64,000 bases of DNA from Lactobacillus melliventris (GTDB lineage Bacteria > Bacillota > Bacilli > Lactobacillales > Lactobacillaceae). The stretch is from the NCBI RefSeq assembly GCF_013346935.1, contig NZ_JAAEEB010000003.1, positions 186,001-250,000 of the forward strand. The letters run 5' to 3'. The notes under the pieces were generated by a model. That model was given only the letters and a program-made list of their open reading frames with translations. It searched no databases and had not been told where the DNA came from. Every line of letters begins with the position of its first letter. Position 1 is the first letter of the stretch. Shown piece by piece: positions 11,954 to 51,840 of this stretch. Both the position numbers and the translations under genes were made by a program.

Positions 11954-11970
11954 GGAATAAGTTGAATACG

Positions 11971-12100
11971 GTTTCTTCGGGGCAGGGTGTAATTCCCTAC
12001 CGACGGTGACAATTAATAATTGAAGTCCGTGACCCGCGTTTTGCGGTGGAACTAGTGTGAGTCTAGTACCGACAGTTAAAGTCTGGATGGGAGAAGAACA
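11971..12100 (+). promoter_or_regulatory. FMN riboswitch (RFN element)
   Basis: The conserved FMN aptamer strands are all visible: an opening TTCTTCGGGGCAGGGTG, then ATTCCCTACCGACGGTGAC, GAAGTCCGTGACCCG, TGAGTCTAGTACCGACAGT and the closing TCTGGATGGGAGAAGAA, which pairs back with the first strand. It sits between a promoter and a strong terminator (12173-12201) in front of ribD. The expected mode is therefore transcription termination when FMN is plentiful. Confidence 0.97.
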
Positions 12101-12172
12101 AACAAGATTAGACAGAAAACTCGCGTCGTTATTAAACTTCGCTGAAATCTTATTTGATGAATATAAAATAAG

Positions 12173-47403: not shown

Positions 47404-48207
47404 TTATGCCAACAAAATGGCATCATCTTCAAGACCTGTACCTACATGTTTTTGGAATAATTCCATTAACTTAGGCACAGTTAAATTTTGTTTATCTTCA
47501 CCAGCCAGATCAATTGCTACACGACCTTGATGCAACATGATCAAACGATTGCCGTAGCGAATAGCATCTTCCATGTTATGAGTGACCATAAATGCTGTCA
47601 AATGCTGTTCAGATATCAACTTTTCAGTTAATTGCATGACTGTTATTGAAGTTTGTGGATCAAGAGCCGCAGTATGTTCATCCAGTAAAATCAAATCTGG
47701 CCGTTGCAGTGTTGCCATTAAAAGGGTAATGGCTTGTCTTTGACCACCAGAAAGTAAGCCAATTTCAGTTTCCAAGCGGTTTTCTAGATTCAAATTAAGT
47801 TGCGCAAGCTGCTTTTTGAAAAATTTTCTGTCTTGACTTTTAACACCAGGACGAAAGCCTCGGCGCTTTCCGCGCTTCATGGCTAAAGCCAAATTTTCTT
47901 CGACGGTTAGTCTGACTGCTGTTCCCATTTTAGGATCTTGAAAAACGCGACTAATATTTTTTGCTCTTTTAGTAACAGGCAGTTTTGTAATATCGGTACC
48001 TTTTAGAATAATTTGTCCTTCTTGAATAGGTAACGTTCCGGCAATACTATTGAGCAGGGTAGACTTACCAGCACCATTACTACCAATGATAGTCACGAAA
48101 TCTCCGGCTTCTAAACTAAGGTCAATTCCGCGTAAAACACGGTTTTCATTAACAGTTCCTTGTTCAAAAGTTTGATGTAAATTTTTAATCTTTAGTACTT
48201 CTGGCAT
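47404..48207 (-). CDS. ATP-binding subunit of TrpXYZ-like amino-acid importer
   Basis: 267-residue ABC ATPase: Walker A GSNGAGKST, signature LLSGGQRQA, Walker B LILLDEHTAALD, switch His VTHNM. It is the last gene of the minus-strand unit binding protein-permease-ATPase and overlaps the permease by 23 nt. The family is the PF04392-associated importer known in streptococci as TrpXYZ. Here the Tyr-rich leader upstream suggests tyrosine (or aromatic) uptake. Confidence 0.88.
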   Translation of the reverse strand: MPEVLKIKNLHQTFEQGTVNENRVLRGIDLSLEAGDFVTIIGSNGAGKSTLLNSIAGTLPIQEGQIILKGTDITKLPVTKRAKNISRVFQDPKMGTAVRLTVEENLALAMKRGKRRGFRPGVKSQDRKFFKKQLAQLNLNLENRLETEIGLLSGGQRQAITLLMATLQRPDLILLDEHTAALDPQTSITVMQLTEKLISEQHLTAFMVTHNMEDAIRYGNRLIMLHQGRVAIDLAGEDKQNLTVPKLMELFQKHVGTGLEDDAILLA

Positions 48208-49102
48208 TTTGCTTTCCTCCTTTAAGATTGCGTGGTAAATGGAAATTCGGCAAAGTTAAGCACACAACTAAGACTAAAGCTGAAGCTAATTTTGCATCAG
48301 ACGGTTCTACATTCATTTGGAATACCAAAGCTAAAATCAGTCTATAAATGATGGCACCTACGACTAAAGTAAGTAAACGACCACCAATTGACAGATTGCG
48401 AATAAGTACTTCTGCAATAATAATTGAAGCTAGTCCGATAACAAGAGTACCTACACCAGAGTTAAGGTCGGCAAAGCCGTTATTTTGTGCTAACAGTCCA
48501 CCTGACAAAGCAATACAGCCATTAGAAATCATATAACCTAAAATTTTCATTCCTTGAGTTTTAATGCCGTTGGCAGCACTCATTTGCGGGTTATCACCAG
48601 TGGCTCTCATAGCCAAGCCTATTTCTGTTTTGAAGAAAACGACTAATAAGAAGATCACTAAAAGTGCAATTATCAGTCCCATTGCAATTACAGCATTGTT
48701 ATGACTTAAGCCCCAATTTTGTGCAATTGTAAAAACCGTATCTTTGCCTAGCAATGAAACATTGGCAGCGTTTTGCATCACTCTGGAAGTAATGGAGTAT
48801 AACCCAGTCATAGTGATGATTCCTGCTAATAATGAAGGAATACGCAATTTGGTATTCAAAATACCAGTAACTAGTCCGGCAATTAAACCGCCAATAAATG
48901 CGGCAATAGTTGCTAATATCGGATTAATTCCTTTAATAATGCACATCGTCGCAACAGCCCCACCTAAGGGGAAACTGCCTTCAGCCGTCATGTCGGCTAG
49001 ATCTAATATCCGAAAAGTTAAATAAACACCGATTGCCATTAATGACCAAAGTAGTCCTTGAGAAGTAGACGAAAGTAATAACTCCCAAAATGTATTTAAC
49101 AT
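48185..49102 (-). CDS. Permease subunit of TrpXYZ-like amino-acid importer
   Basis: 305-residue integral membrane protein of the branched-chain/BMP permease type, with about eight to nine hydrophobic segments, starting LLLSSTSQGLLWSLMAIGVYLTFRIL and including EIGLAMRATGDNPQMSAANGI, the coupling-helix region that contacts the ATPase. Probably works as a homodimer. It follows the binding protein gene after 30 nt. Confidence 0.88.
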   Translation of the reverse strand: MLNTFWELLLSSTSQGLLWSLMAIGVYLTFRILDLADMTAEGSFPLGGAVATMCIIKGINPILATIAAFIGGLIAGLVTGILNTKLRIPSLLAGIITMTGLYSITSRVMQNAANVSLLGKDTVFTIAQNWGLSHNNAVIAMGLIIALLVIFLLVVFFKTEIGLAMRATGDNPQMSAANGIKTQGMKILGYMISNGCIALSGGLLAQNNGFADLNSGVGTLVIGLASIIIAEVLIRNLSIGGRLLTLVVGAIIYRLILALVFQMNVEPSDAKLASALVLVVCLTLPNFHLPRNLKGGKQNARSTKD

Positions 49103-49132: not shown

Positions 49133-50101
49133 TTACTTAGGTGCTTTAATTGAAGCAGGGTCAATTCCAAGTGCCTTTGCCATTTTCTTGTTAACCACCA
49201 ATTTCAAATCGGTAGCTTTTTCAACAGGCATGTCTTTAGGTTTAGCTTTACCATCTAAAATCTTAGCAGCCATTTTACCGGTTTGTTTACCAAGTGCCTC
49301 ATAATCTATTCCAATAGAAGCCAAGCCGCCAGTTTTAACTTGATCCGTTGAACCAGCTACTAGTGGGATTTTCTTTTCCTTAACGACCTTACCAATAATT
49401 GAAGAAGCAGAGGCAAAAGTATTGTCTGTTGGTACGTAAATTCCTTGTACTTTTCCTGCTAAAGTTTCAGTGACTTGTTGAACATCATTTGTTGTGTTGG
49501 CCGTCTTAATTAAAACTTTGACTCCGGCTTTTTTAAGTGCCTTGACAGCTAGATCAGCTTGAATTTTGGAATTGGCTTCGCCCGCATTGTACATAATGCC
49601 AATTGTTTTAGCCTTAGGCACAATTGATAAAAGTAATTTGATTTGTTTATCAATTGAAACCATATCAGTGGTTCCTGTGACATTTCTGCCAGGTTTAGCG
49701 TTTGAATTTACTAGTTTGGCAGCTTTTAGATCAGTCACAGCAGTCACTACAATCGGGATATCCTCGGTAGCATTTGCTACGCTTTGTGCTGCTGGGGTGG
49801 CAATACCTAAAATTAAATCTGATTTTTCGTTGACTAGTTTTTCACTCATGCTCTTCAAATTGTCTTGACTATTTTGCGCATTTTGGTAATCAATCTTTAA
49901 ATTTTTGCCTTCAACGTAGCCTTTTTCTTTCAGTCCTTCTTTAAAGCCCTTGTTGGCTTCATCTAAAGAGGGATGTTGTACTACTTGCAGTATACCCACA
50001 TGTTTGACAGTCGCTGTACTGCCTGATTTTTTGTTATTGCAACCACTTAGTAGTAACAAACCGGTTAAGGCCATTCCCATAACTAATTTCTTAATTCGCA
50101 T
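49133..50101 (-). CDS. Substrate-binding lipoprotein 1 of TrpXYZ-like importer
   Basis: 322-residue lipoprotein: signal peptide with lipobox LLLLSGCN (Cys about 21), then a two-lobed PF04392-type binding domain (VGILQVVQHPSLDEAN at its start, DLILGIATPAAQSVAN, TVGTTD-like and PTDNTFASA loops). It is highly similar end to end to the 50561-51529 protein. GGAGG precedes the ATG. The gene is preceded by a promoter, a Tyr-rich leader ORF and a terminator (50136-50430), the candidate attenuator. Confidence 0.9.
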   Translation of the reverse strand: MRIKKLVMGMALTGLLLLSGCNNKKSGSTATVKHVGILQVVQHPSLDEANKGFKEGLKEKGYVEGKNLKIDYQNAQNSQDNLKSMSEKLVNEKSDLILGIATPAAQSVANATEDIPIVVTAVTDLKAAKLVNSNAKPGRNVTGTTDMVSIDKQIKLLLSIVPKAKTIGIMYNAGEANSKIQADLAVKALKKAGVKVLIKTANTTNDVQQVTETLAGKVQGIYVPTDNTFASASSIIGKVVKEKKIPLVAGSTDQVKTGGLASIGIDYEALGKQTGKMAAKILDGKAKPKDMPVEKATDLKLVVNKKMAKALGIDPASIKAPK

Positions 50102-50139: not shown

Positions 50140-50164
50140 ACACCCACTTATTCTAAGTGGGTGT
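50140..50164 (-). terminator. Attenuator terminator, copy 1
   Basis: On the minus strand CACCCACTTA pairs with TAAGTGGGTG (loop GAA), followed by TTTT(T), 35 nt before the binding-protein start codon. Confidence 0.9.
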
Positions 50165-50305
50165 ACAAGCATTATTTTCATTAATAATTATTTGTGATTA
50201 ACCACTTAGAAAGCTATGTGGCTAACCGCAACTAAAGGACTCTAGCCATCATAGATAAATTCAAAACTTGAATCTGGTTTGAATTCATCTAGATGAACCC
50301 AAACC

Positions 50306-50371
50306 CTATCTAAAATAGCTAAAGTAGTAACGATTATTCAGTTGTGAGATGTGTTTAATATAATATTTCAT
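50306..50371 (-). CDS. Tyr/Phe-rich leader peptide, copy 1
   Basis: A 21-codon ORF that begins MKYYIKH and ends NNRYYFSYFR, with GGAGG (50382-50386) 10 nt before the ATG. It holds five Tyr and two Phe codons, concentrated in the last seven residues. Its last codons and stop form the 5' arm of hairpin P1, so a ribosome waiting at the TAC TAC pair would cover that arm. The same end, NNRYYLSYYR, is found in copy 2. Confidence 0.75.
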   Translation of the reverse strand: MKYYIKHISQLNNRYYFSYFR

Positions 50372-50401
50372 TTAAGATCAACCTCCAACCTTAATGAGAA
50401 G

Positions 50402-50430
50402 ATTATAAAAAATAAAGAAGAAAAAGTCAA
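50402..50430 (-). promoter_or_regulatory. Promoter of leader/importer unit, copy 1
   Basis: On the minus strand TTGACT (50425-50430), 17-nt spacer, TATAAT (50402-50407). The copy 2 promoter is identical in both boxes and spacing. Confidence 0.88.
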
Positions 50431-50524: not shown

Positions 50525-50549
50525 ATAAAAAAACTGCCCTTGTGGCAGT
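50525..50549 (-). terminator. Terminator after binding-protein gene 2
   Basis: On the minus strand ACTGCC pairs with GGCAGT (5-nt loop), followed by a T-run (50525-50532), 12 nt after the stop codon. It makes the 50561-51529 gene a separate unit from the copy 1 operon. Confidence 0.85.
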
Positions 50550-50560
50550 CTGTTTCCCGT

Positions 50561-51529
50561 TTATTTTGGAGCTTTAATTGATTTAGGATCAATTCCAAGT
50601 GCTTTGGCCATACTTTTGTTCACCACTAATTTCATATCGTGTGCTTTTTCGACTGGCATGTTTGCAGGTTTAGCTTTGCCAGATAAAATTTTCGCAGCCA
50701 TTTTCCCTGTTTGTTCTCCCAATAATTCGTAATCAATTCCGATTGAGGCTAAGCCGCCAGTTTTGACTTGATCAACTGAACTTGCTACCAGAGGAACCTT
50801 CTTTTCTTTGACAACTTTACCAACTACTGAAGCTGCTGAATCAAAGGTATTATCTGTAGGAACGAAAATACCGTCAACTTTCGAGGCCAGAGTTTCTGTT
50901 ACTTGTTGGACATCGTTAGTCGTATTTGCAGTTTTGATCAAAACTTTAACTCCTGCTTTTTTTAGTGCAGCTGTTGCTAAGTCAGCCTGAATTTTGGAGT
51001 TTGATTCACCAGCGTTGTACATGATACCGATAGTTTTAGCCTTGGGCACAATTGACAACAGCAACTTGATCTGGCGTTTAATTGAAACCATATCTGTTGT
51101 GCCCGTGATATTTCTACCCGGTTTCTCATCTGAATTAACTAATTTAGCGGCTTTTAAATCAGTTACAGCAGTGACAACAGTTGGGATTTTCTGCGTTGCA
51201 TTCGCCACGCTTTGCGCTGCCGGTGTAGCAATCCCTAAGATCAAATCTGACTTTTCGTTGACCAGTTTTTCACTCATACTTTTCAAATTATCTTGATTAT
51301 TTTGAGCGTTCTGGTAATCAATCTTAAGATTTTTACCCTCTACAAAGCCACTTTCCTTTAAGCCCTTTTTAAAGCCCTTGTATGCTTTATCTAGAGAAGG
51401 GTGCTGCACTACTTGCAAAACGCCCACGTGTTTCACGTCTGGACTTTTACTAGCTTTCTTACTGCTGCAGCCTCCTAAAGCCATTAAACCAACAATTGTA
51501 ATTCCTGTAATTAATTTTCTAAAACGCAT
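50561..51529 (-). CDS. Substrate-binding lipoprotein 2 (paralog of the TrpX-like protein)
   Basis: 322 residues, same length and nearly same sequence as the 49133-50101 protein; lipobox LMALGGCS. Differences concentrate in the signal peptide and scattered surface positions (KRQIKLLLS for KQIKLLL, for example). It has no permease or ATPase of its own and would deliver to the neighbouring importer. It carries its own promoter, leader ORF and attenuator (51543-51840), so the duplication covered regulator RNA plus gene as one 1.4-kb unit. Confidence 0.9.
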   Translation of the reverse strand: MRFRKLITGITIVGLMALGGCSSKKASKSPDVKHVGVLQVVQHPSLDKAYKGFKKGLKESGFVEGKNLKIDYQNAQNNQDNLKSMSEKLVNEKSDLILGIATPAAQSVANATQKIPTVVTAVTDLKAAKLVNSDEKPGRNITGTTDMVSIKRQIKLLLSIVPKAKTIGIMYNAGESNSKIQADLATAALKKAGVKVLIKTANTTNDVQQVTETLASKVDGIFVPTDNTFDSAASVVGKVVKEKKVPLVASSVDQVKTGGLASIGIDYELLGEQTGKMAAKILSGKAKPANMPVEKAHDMKLVVNKSMAKALGIDPKSIKAPK

Positions 51530-51548
51530 TTTGTGCCTCCATAAAAAA

Positions 51549-51572
51549 TACCCACTTACTTCTAAGCGGGTA
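51549..51572 (-). terminator. Attenuator terminator, copy 2
   Basis: On the minus strand TACCCGCTTA pairs with TAAGTGGGTA (one G-U pair, 4-nt loop), followed by six T, 14-20 nt before the binding-protein start. Confidence 0.88.
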
Positions 51573-51717
51573 CACAGAAATTAAATTGCCAACAAATAAT
51601 TGGATTGTGGTTAGCCACTTAGAAAGCTATGTGGCTAACCGTACTAAAAGAGTCCTAGCCATCATAGATAAATTCAAACTTAGTTTCGTTTGAATTCACC
51701 TAGATGAACTCAAACTC

Positions 51718-51783
51718 TTATCTATAGTAGCTAAGATAATAACGATTATTTAGTTGATTCTCTTTTTGACTAAACTGAATCAT
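51718..51783 (-). CDS. Tyr-rich leader peptide, copy 2
   Basis: A 21-codon ORF that begins MIQFSQKEN and ends NNRYYLSYYR, behind GGAGG (51792-51796). It has four Tyr codons in the last seven residues. The N-terminal half differs completely from copy 1, while QLNNRYYxSYxR and the stop position are kept, which is what selection on codons at the P1 arm would leave. Confidence 0.75.
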   Translation of the reverse strand: MIQFSQKENQLNNRYYLSYYR

Positions 51784-51811
51784 TATCCTTACCTCCAACT
51801 TTGATAACAAG

Positions 51812-51840
51812 ATTATAAAAAAATAACAACTTAAAGTCAA
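51812..51840 (-). promoter_or_regulatory. Promoter of leader/binding-protein unit, copy 2
   Basis: On the minus strand TTGACT (51835-51840), 17-nt spacer, TATAAT (51812-51817). Confidence 0.88.

Follow-up and report, generated by a model that had tools for sequence, protein, structure and literature searches.

In a 64,000-nucleotide stretch of Lactobacillus melliventris DNA (contig NZ_JAAEEB010000003.1, positions 186,001 to 250,000 of the forward strand; "the window" hereafter means the whole of this stretch), tandem genes for two TrpX-like substrate-binding proteins are each preceded by a leader that, judging from its sequence, is very probably a ribosome-mediated transcription attenuator of the his operon type. 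The two leaders span 50140-50430 (copy 1) and 51548-51840 (copy 2), lie, like the importer genes, on the minus strand of the window and have in common a promoter, a 21-codon open reading frame (ORF), a relay of alternative RNA pairings and a terminator. We assign them to this class because the ORF has a start, a Shine-Dalgarno sequence and clustered regulatory codons, because segment A takes part in the relay, and because segment E is shared by terminator and antiterminator; as far as homology alone can tell, the genes under control serve the synthesis or uptake of the very amino acid that the leader codons specify. The segment scheme of the his attenuator sets an off state of three hairpins against an on state of two helices. 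For the element described here, the features are the following, those of copy 2 being given first.

51812 to 51840, minus strand: copy 2 promoter, TTGACT-17-TATAAT, agreeing with 11 of 12 consensus positions
51792 to 51796, minus strand: copy 2 leader Shine-Dalgarno sequence GGAGG, read from the sequence
51718 to 51783, minus strand: copy 2 leader ORF of 21 codons, MIQFSQKENQLNNRYYLSYYR followed by the stop
51718 to 51741, minus strand: copy 2 segment A, the last part of the leader ORF, containing the Tyr control codons (covariation)
51688 to 51715, minus strand: copy 2 inner hairpin I1:I2, situated between segments A and B, read from the sequence, its helix supported by the covariation tests
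51655 to 51679, minus strand: copy 2 segment B, core CTATGATGGCTAG at 51667-51655, pairing with A or C (covariation)
51627 to 51640, minus strand: copy 2 segment C, pairing with B or D (pairing and covariation)
51609 to 51622, minus strand: copy 2 segment D, pairing with C or E (pairing and covariation)
51548 to 51573, minus strand: copy 2 intrinsic terminator (E 51573-51563, F 51558-51548), then a T run
50402 to 50430, minus strand: copy 1 promoter, TTGACT-17-TATAAT, agreeing with 11 of 12 consensus positions
50306 to 50371, minus strand: copy 1 leader ORF of 21 codons, MKYYIKHISQLNNRYYFSYFR followed by the stop
50242 to 50254, minus strand: copy 1 segment B core, from comparison of the copies
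50193 to 50230, minus strand: copy 1 C:D hairpin (C 50230-50214, D 50209-50193)
50140 to 50164, minus strand: copy 1 intrinsic terminator E:F

Six segments, A to F, make up the relay and pair as A:B, C:D and E:F in the off state and as B:C and D:E in the on state. Segment A comprises the last eight leader codons including the stop, and a ribosome at this place can therefore decide the relay. The A:B helix of copy 2 runs over about 17 positions and encloses the inner hairpin, and its B:C alternative joins CUAUG, a bulged A and UGGCUA with UAGCCACAUAG. An earlier note on this DNA had proposed that promoter, leader ORF, inner hairpin, the hairpin C:D (there called P2) and terminator recur in front of the paralogous gene, which is borne out on the minus strand. 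It had also held that a change of A to G in the terminator arm (CCCAC to CCCGC) leaves both competing pairings in place and that C:D pairs better in copy 2. The pairing energies confirm both points, with -13.9 versus -13.2 kcal/mol for D:E and -15.8 versus -15.2 kcal/mol for E:F between the copies, and with -17.9 kcal/mol for C:D in copy 2 versus -14.9 kcal/mol in copy 1. Among relatives, a terminator-like hairpin with a T run was found at 160 of 160 unique loci by a lenient count, which takes the best site within a 240-nucleotide range and in which one row (L096) is mis-anchored. At L162, L165-L168, L171, L182, L185 and L186 the leader is read past the usual stop and ends nine bases later (..YFSYFRxxL before the stop).

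The sequence supports a promoter, a translatable 21-codon leader, Tyr-rich last codons that overlap A, and the relay of A:B/C:D/E:F versus B:C/D:E. On this basis, with ample charged tRNA-Tyr the ribosome would finish the leader and leave, A:B and C:D would form, and E:F would terminate transcription. With charged tRNA-Tyr scarce, it would stall on the Tyr codons, cover A and free B; once B:C has formed under the stall, D would pair with E and transcription would enter the importer gene. Copy 1, ending in YYFSYF, would sense Tyr and Phe and drive a binding protein with permease and ATPase, and copy 2 (YYLSYY) would sense Tyr alone, its binding protein presumably using the same permease and ATPase.

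Judged by covariation across relatives, both mutually exclusive pairing sets are maintained. An alignment-free partner-swap test was carried out on 33 representatives less than 66% alike, drawn from 156 loci, after four of 160 loci without a C:D hairpin by the rule used had been dropped. Pairing was stronger between own than between swapped partners for A:B (-16.3 versus -13.1), B:C (-12.7 versus -10.8) and D:E (-13.0 versus -8.3), and for each of the three none of 500 permutations was as good. C:D and E:F also pass the permutation test, but both were defined by pairing. Three pairs that the model forbids fail, with 396 (A:C), 315 (C:E) and 496 (B:E) of 500 permutations as good; the likewise forbidden A:D passes (2/500, z -2.8), a signal that may reflect transitivity, as D resembles B, and a further alternative, I2:B, passes as well (1/500). 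Removal of L096 gave the same outcome (A:B, B:C and D:E each 0/500; A:C 370, C:E 178, B:E 499 and A:D 3 of 500). In an alignment of 32 sequences, named A2 (31 of the 33 representatives, with L024 and L096 omitted, plus copy 2 of the window), A:B, the inner hairpin and C:D together are paired in 92.7% of cells, with 30-42% in slid versions and with 0 of 500 shuffles as good, the alignment shuffles ignoring the relatedness of the sequences, and 25 of their 38 pairs have changes on both sides. For the competing B:C, pairing is seen in 85.5% of cells (0/500 shuffles; slid versions 23-42%), and changes on both sides occur at 7 of 11 pairs (5/500 shuffles). The competing sets of the leaders and their relatives thus beat shuffled, slid and swapped controls, and the proposal that selection acts on the codons as well as on the mutually exclusive pairings is supported by covariation of both sets over 32-33 diverged relatives.

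Equilibrium folding, on the other hand, gives a mixed picture that in part weighs against this mechanism. With a ribosome mask moved codon by codon, the switch was reproduced in two of six leaders modelled (L169 and L013), in which B:C plus D:E form when the ribosome stalls at the first aromatic codons and C:D when it has moved further on, the states of L169 at the stop and of L013 as free RNA being ambiguous. No switch was seen by folding in copies 1 and 2 of the window (L001 and L002), L073 and L036. Under stall, B:C is present in copy 1 as long as D has not been made, after which C:D is preferred (-45.3 versus -42.5), and copy 2 lacks B:C under stall even before D (-57.0 versus -46.2), because neighbouring bases trap B. 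Among the 33 representatives, L096 included, D:E beats C:D in 6 as free RNA, 15 when stalled and 7 with the ribosome at the stop; a B:C helix of at least four pairs in RNA ending at C was obtained in 13, 31 and 26 of them, respectively. For the attenuator to work as proposed, a kinetic, co-transcriptional effect must be assumed, and either kinetics would decide or copy 2 would be a weak switch.

Comparison of the two leaders showed that the ORF length of 21 codons and the stop position are the same in both, as had been claimed, and that the N-terminal halves of the peptides are indeed unrelated, with 12 of 27 nucleotides identical over the first nine codons. Identity amounts to 32/39 from the codons QLNN to the stop, 34/37 in the B region and 21/35 in the D-E spacer. 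The claim that the peptide end is kept is too simple and overlooks that both Phe codons are lost in copy 2 (YYFSYF to YYLSYY). Equal frequencies of synonymous and non-synonymous changes had been named as an argument against selection; in the 3' half of the ORF, from QLNN to the stop, five of the seven changes are synonymous (TAG/TAA included), and each of the two non-synonymous ones removes a Phe codon (TTT to CTT and TTT to TAT).

As parts of the two leaders are 82-92% identical, their similarity could in principle reflect a recent duplication or gene conversion and no selection. This explanation appears extremely unlikely, since the downstream genes are synonymously saturated (synonymous divergence dS 2.9, non-synonymous divergence dN 0.12, 43 of 122 fourfold sites identical) and yet the first nine codons and the D-E spacer have diverged as given above; in addition, leaders specific to one or the other paralog are seen again in those bee Lactobacillus species that have both genes. 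Conversion restricted to short leader segments may have taken place. We consider the duplication old because dS is saturated and the paralog clades are common to bee lactobacilli. A metagenome-assembled genome of an uncultured Lactobacillus encodes a binding protein 99.7% identical to that of copy 2, and identity is 97-98% with the proteins of Lactobacillus laiwuensis, kimbladii, kullabergensis, huangpiensis and helsingborgensis, which are the honeybee gut "Firm-5" group. In a tree of 78 binding proteins, copy 2 forms a clade of 12 with Firm-5 and L. apis relatives (support 100/98), and all 12 leaders of this clade are free of Phe (RYYLSYYR or RYYYSYYR). The clade is nested in one of 16 members (97/93); of the four leaders that the larger clade adds, one lacks Phe and three contain it once. 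The copy 1 orthologs of the same species all have the leader RYYFSYFR. In this reading of leaders by locus, two were mis-picked (one gene of L033, and L112). Divergence in Phe content was also found elsewhere: three neighbouring importer genes at L032 (G106:C1:1985000-1997000) have a mixed (FYFSYF), a Phe-only (FSFSFF) and a Tyr-only (YYYSYY) leader, and the genomes G009, G048, G079 and G098 carry multiple copies whose leaders differ in Phe content. With both Phe codons lost in copy 2, the copies therefore probably respond to different amino acids, the copy 2 leader probably sensing tyrosine alone and the copy 1 leader tyrosine plus phenylalanine.

The high conservation of the leader peptide core, QLNN..YxSYxR, would also suit nascent-peptide arrest, in which the peptide would sense free tyrosine in a TnaC-like manner and codon starvation would play no part. 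We regard such arrest as very unlikely, as the Leu of QLNN is encoded by all six codons and AAT encodes the first Asn in 125 of 128 leaders, which is a nucleotide-type pattern, and as Tyr and Phe codons replace one another from lineage to lineage and from paralog to paralog; an importer induced by high ligand would, moreover, be odd. For one of the 183 loci of this codon comparison, L096, a wrong leader had been picked. Selection on QLNN at the peptide level had initially been favoured and was dropped since its codons follow this nucleotide pattern. The conserved QLN codons (CAA YTR AAT, window ~51757-51749 and ~50345-50337), which are absent from the earlier note, fall outside segment A; the constraint on them acts on the nucleotides, and a helix with the surroundings of the Shine-Dalgarno sequence of the same leader is possible. 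For such a "helix 0", 0 of 200 permutations on 116 sequences and 25 of 500 on 19 diverged representatives (z -1.7) were as good, a result that is suggestive and on which we base no claim.

Both leaders resemble an RNA family that Rfam holds as "Enterococcus sRNA 2410" (RF02863) and classes as "Gene; sRNA":

50161 to 50322, minus strand: copy 1 match to RF02863, 67 bits at a cut-off of 61, a member
51566 to 51734, minus strand: copy 2 match to RF02863, 55.1 bits at a cut-off of 61

Copy 2 is clearly related (E 2.4e-8 in its own genome), yet no member by the Rfam rule. Matches to RF02863 occur in at least 28 of 301 genomes from the taxonomic family of the host (E <= 0.001, with filters that lose some weak matches), in 222 of 395 Lactobacillales genomes and 56 of 80 genera (E <= 0.01; 99 over the cut-off), and in 35 of 398 genomes of the class (E <= 0.001), five of which lie outside Lactobacillales. 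We examined 125 matches, comprising 35 listed from the family search and 90 among the matches listed from the order search, of which 30 were given automatically and 60 were chosen to cover families and second copies. At all 125, an adjacent frame (the best of three) has at least four F/Y in its last 10 codons, a property shared by 3.4% of 1131 positions elsewhere in these loci and by 6.8% of 2500 Markov shuffles. The ORF filter missed or misread the leaders at eight of the 90 order loci, six of which were read by eye, the others being L145 and L147. All 58 named importer loci of Lactobacillales have a leader ORF (the ORF filter picked up 56), and eight matches in five genomes outside Lactobacillales also have short ORFs with aromatic ends, whereas the same filter applied to 20 more distant importer loci gave no fitting leader (two accidental ORFs).

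The Rfam name implies a stand-alone, trans-acting small RNA. In Enterococcus faecium, sRNA_2410 was described as a 195-nucleotide RNA by RNA-seq with two transcripts on a Northern blot, and for daptomycin a 2.3-fold value (RNA-seq) is listed, yet expression is also called mostly uniform (PMC5593968). The match to RF02863, however, begins inside the leader ORF and ends at the terminator of the alternative pairing, and at the 125 loci the gene that it precedes is, where identified, nearly always an aromatic amino acid gene or a TrpX-type importer gene. A terminated leader would yield just such a short RNA, and the best RF02863 match, at L036, is 195 nucleotides long and stands before an importer gene. 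We thus give a function in trans very little credence compared with attenuation in cis. In the text of the one paper among the literature searched that names sRNA_2410, "leader" and "attenuat" do not occur (PMC5593968), and a term search of the paper by Shioya on E. faecalis small RNAs gave no "2410" (PMC3166299).

Analysis of the genes located 3' of the element revealed a TrpX-type binding protein at 33 and an aminotransferase at two of the 35 family-search matches. The 90 order matches precede genes for a TrpX-type binding protein (68), shikimate dehydrogenase AroE (15), DAHP synthase (3), prephenate dehydratase PheA (2), chorismate synthase AroC (1) and a family 3 solute-binding protein (1). 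Pfam confirmed two AroE, two DAHP synthases, two PheA, AroC, both aminotransferases and the family 3 binding protein, while the remaining AroE (13) and the third DAHP synthase were assigned from the beginnings of the proteins. Outside Lactobacillales, the element precedes genes for DAHP synthase, PheA, a TrpX-like binding protein (from its beginning), a transketolase and a sodium symporter. It apparently controls one aromatic-amino-acid regulon. Some loci stand out. At L216 (G769:C36:29229-31993), outside Lactobacillales, an ORF ending in IWYSYRR and the element precede a sodium:neurotransmitter symporter gene (PF00209), and this leader may sense Trp as well as Tyr. The leader YYYFGWFS at L220 (G742:C39:156093-158485) stands before the transketolase gene, whose product might provide the shikimate pathway with erythrose 4-phosphate. 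At L154:769-2799, the element precedes a gene for a 677-residue protein with three SBP_bac_3 (PF00497) stretches that is unrelated to TrpX.

Control of these genes by a T-box or another riboswitch would have a precedent in Streptococcus suis, where T-box(Trp) control of the homologous trpX was demonstrated by reporter mutations (PMC9382623). For the loci considered here we hold it to be exceedingly unlikely, as no T-box was found at the Rfam cut-off in the window or at 16 related loci and all 11 matches there are RF02863.

The genes downstream of the two attenuators are arranged as follows.

50561 to 51529, minus strand: copy 2 substrate-binding protein gene (PF04392; TrpX-like), from Pfam and NCBIfam matches
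50531 to 50551, minus strand: terminator-like site 3' of the copy 2 gene, from a terminator scan
49133 to 50101, minus strand: copy 1 substrate-binding protein gene, from domain matches
48185 to 49102, minus strand: permease gene (PF02653), from Pfam
47404 to 48207, minus strand: ABC ATPase gene (PF00005), from Pfam

The two tandem binding protein genes encode proteins 82.6% identical. The copy 1 gene is followed by the permease and ATPase genes and the copy 2 gene by its own terminator-like site, which suggests that the latter is a single-gene transcript. No match to PF01264 (chorismate synthase) or PF00800 (prephenate dehydratase) was obtained in the host genome (a 2.0-Mb draft in 28 contigs, 99.9% complete), while 14 of 14 control genomes have both; import is therefore probably needed for these amino acids, and uptake is probably their source in this host. 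Elsewhere in the window, a flavin mononucleotide (FMN) riboswitch lies on the plus strand at 11969-12102 (110.8 bits).

As to the ligand, the nearest NCBIfam model is ABC_SBP_TrpX (tryptophan), to which the two binding proteins score 333 and 337.7 bits, below its cut-off of 390, and the nearest solved structure is CD0873. This protein binds tyrosine, while its relatives VC_1101 and SP1069 bind phenylalanine and tryptophan, respectively, and SP1069 has Gln where CD0873 and VC_1101 have Tyr (PMC6816091). None of the 165 leader-linked binding proteins has Gln at that pocket position, and both window copies have Tyr; therefore Tyr/Phe fits better than Trp, in agreement with the leader codons. Ser at the position of CD0873 Ala262, which adjoins the residue contacting the tyrosine hydroxyl (PMC6816091), is found in the 12 copy 2 clade proteins only, of the 165. 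The C. difficile paralog CD0876, proposed as another tyrosine transporter, also carries Ser there. In a post hoc comparison, the common Gly-Ser/Tyr pocket was found in 2 of 25 proteins with Tyr-rich leaders (Tyr fraction of at least 0.8) versus 112 of 140 others, and, likewise post hoc, in 1/8 versus 27/37 on representatives (p 0.003). A polar residue at the position of CD0873 Glu263, considered as a marker of Tyr leaders, was not supported (p 0.02 on 163 usable rows, 0.67 on representatives). We infer that the copy 2 binding protein has become tyrosine-specific. A broader proposal, which we put forward tentatively as possible rather than probable, is that leader codons and pocket residues co-evolve: after the duplication, the second leader would have dropped its Phe codons while the pocket changed, leaving a shared importer core with two binding proteins, each induced by lack of its own ligand.

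Several known systems resemble the element in part. The his operon leader of enterobacteria likewise combines a peptide rich in the regulated amino acid with a three-hairpin off and a two-helix on state (for the general mechanism see PMC9413887); the present element differs in its Tyr/Phe codons and its occurrence in Lactobacillales and a few other Bacilli, and the likeness drawn here is one of scheme. Leader-peptide attenuators are also known from other Firmicutes, with His leaders in bacilli (PMC2965389, PMC9413887) and a leucine-rich attenuator in the Gram-positive Staphylococcus aureus (PMC5794164), both for another amino acid and in another order. The T-box(Trp) of S. suis trpXYZ shares a homologous transporter and antitermination upon starvation with the present element, but is a tRNA-binding riboswitch with no leader peptide (PMC9382623). 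In contrast to the Rfam description of RF02863 as a small RNA, the family corresponds here to the 3' part of an attenuator and reaches into taxonomic families far outside that of Enterococcus. Among the papers listed in searches of the open-licence literature, none describes the attenuator. A 2003 paper by Panina et al., on aromatic amino acid regulation in low-GC Gram-positive bacteria, may describe candidate signals before some of these genes. His-type attenuation itself is an already known mechanism, and what is new, as far as the literature searched goes, is a probable Tyr/Phe attenuator underlying RF02863.

Taken together, these results provide a likely mechanism for RF02863, which Rfam describes as nothing more than a small RNA of Enterococcus, and they point to a Tyr/Phe supply regulon that is widespread in Lactobacillales and controlled via leader peptide translation. 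They also offer, in a bee gut symbiont seemingly unable to make these amino acids, a direct test case of whether regulatory codons predict transporter cargo. If the proposed co-evolution of leader and pocket is true, the leader peptide would be a natural label of the transporter ligand across lactic acid bacteria, and many "tryptophan" TrpX proteins would be tyrosine/phenylalanine importers.
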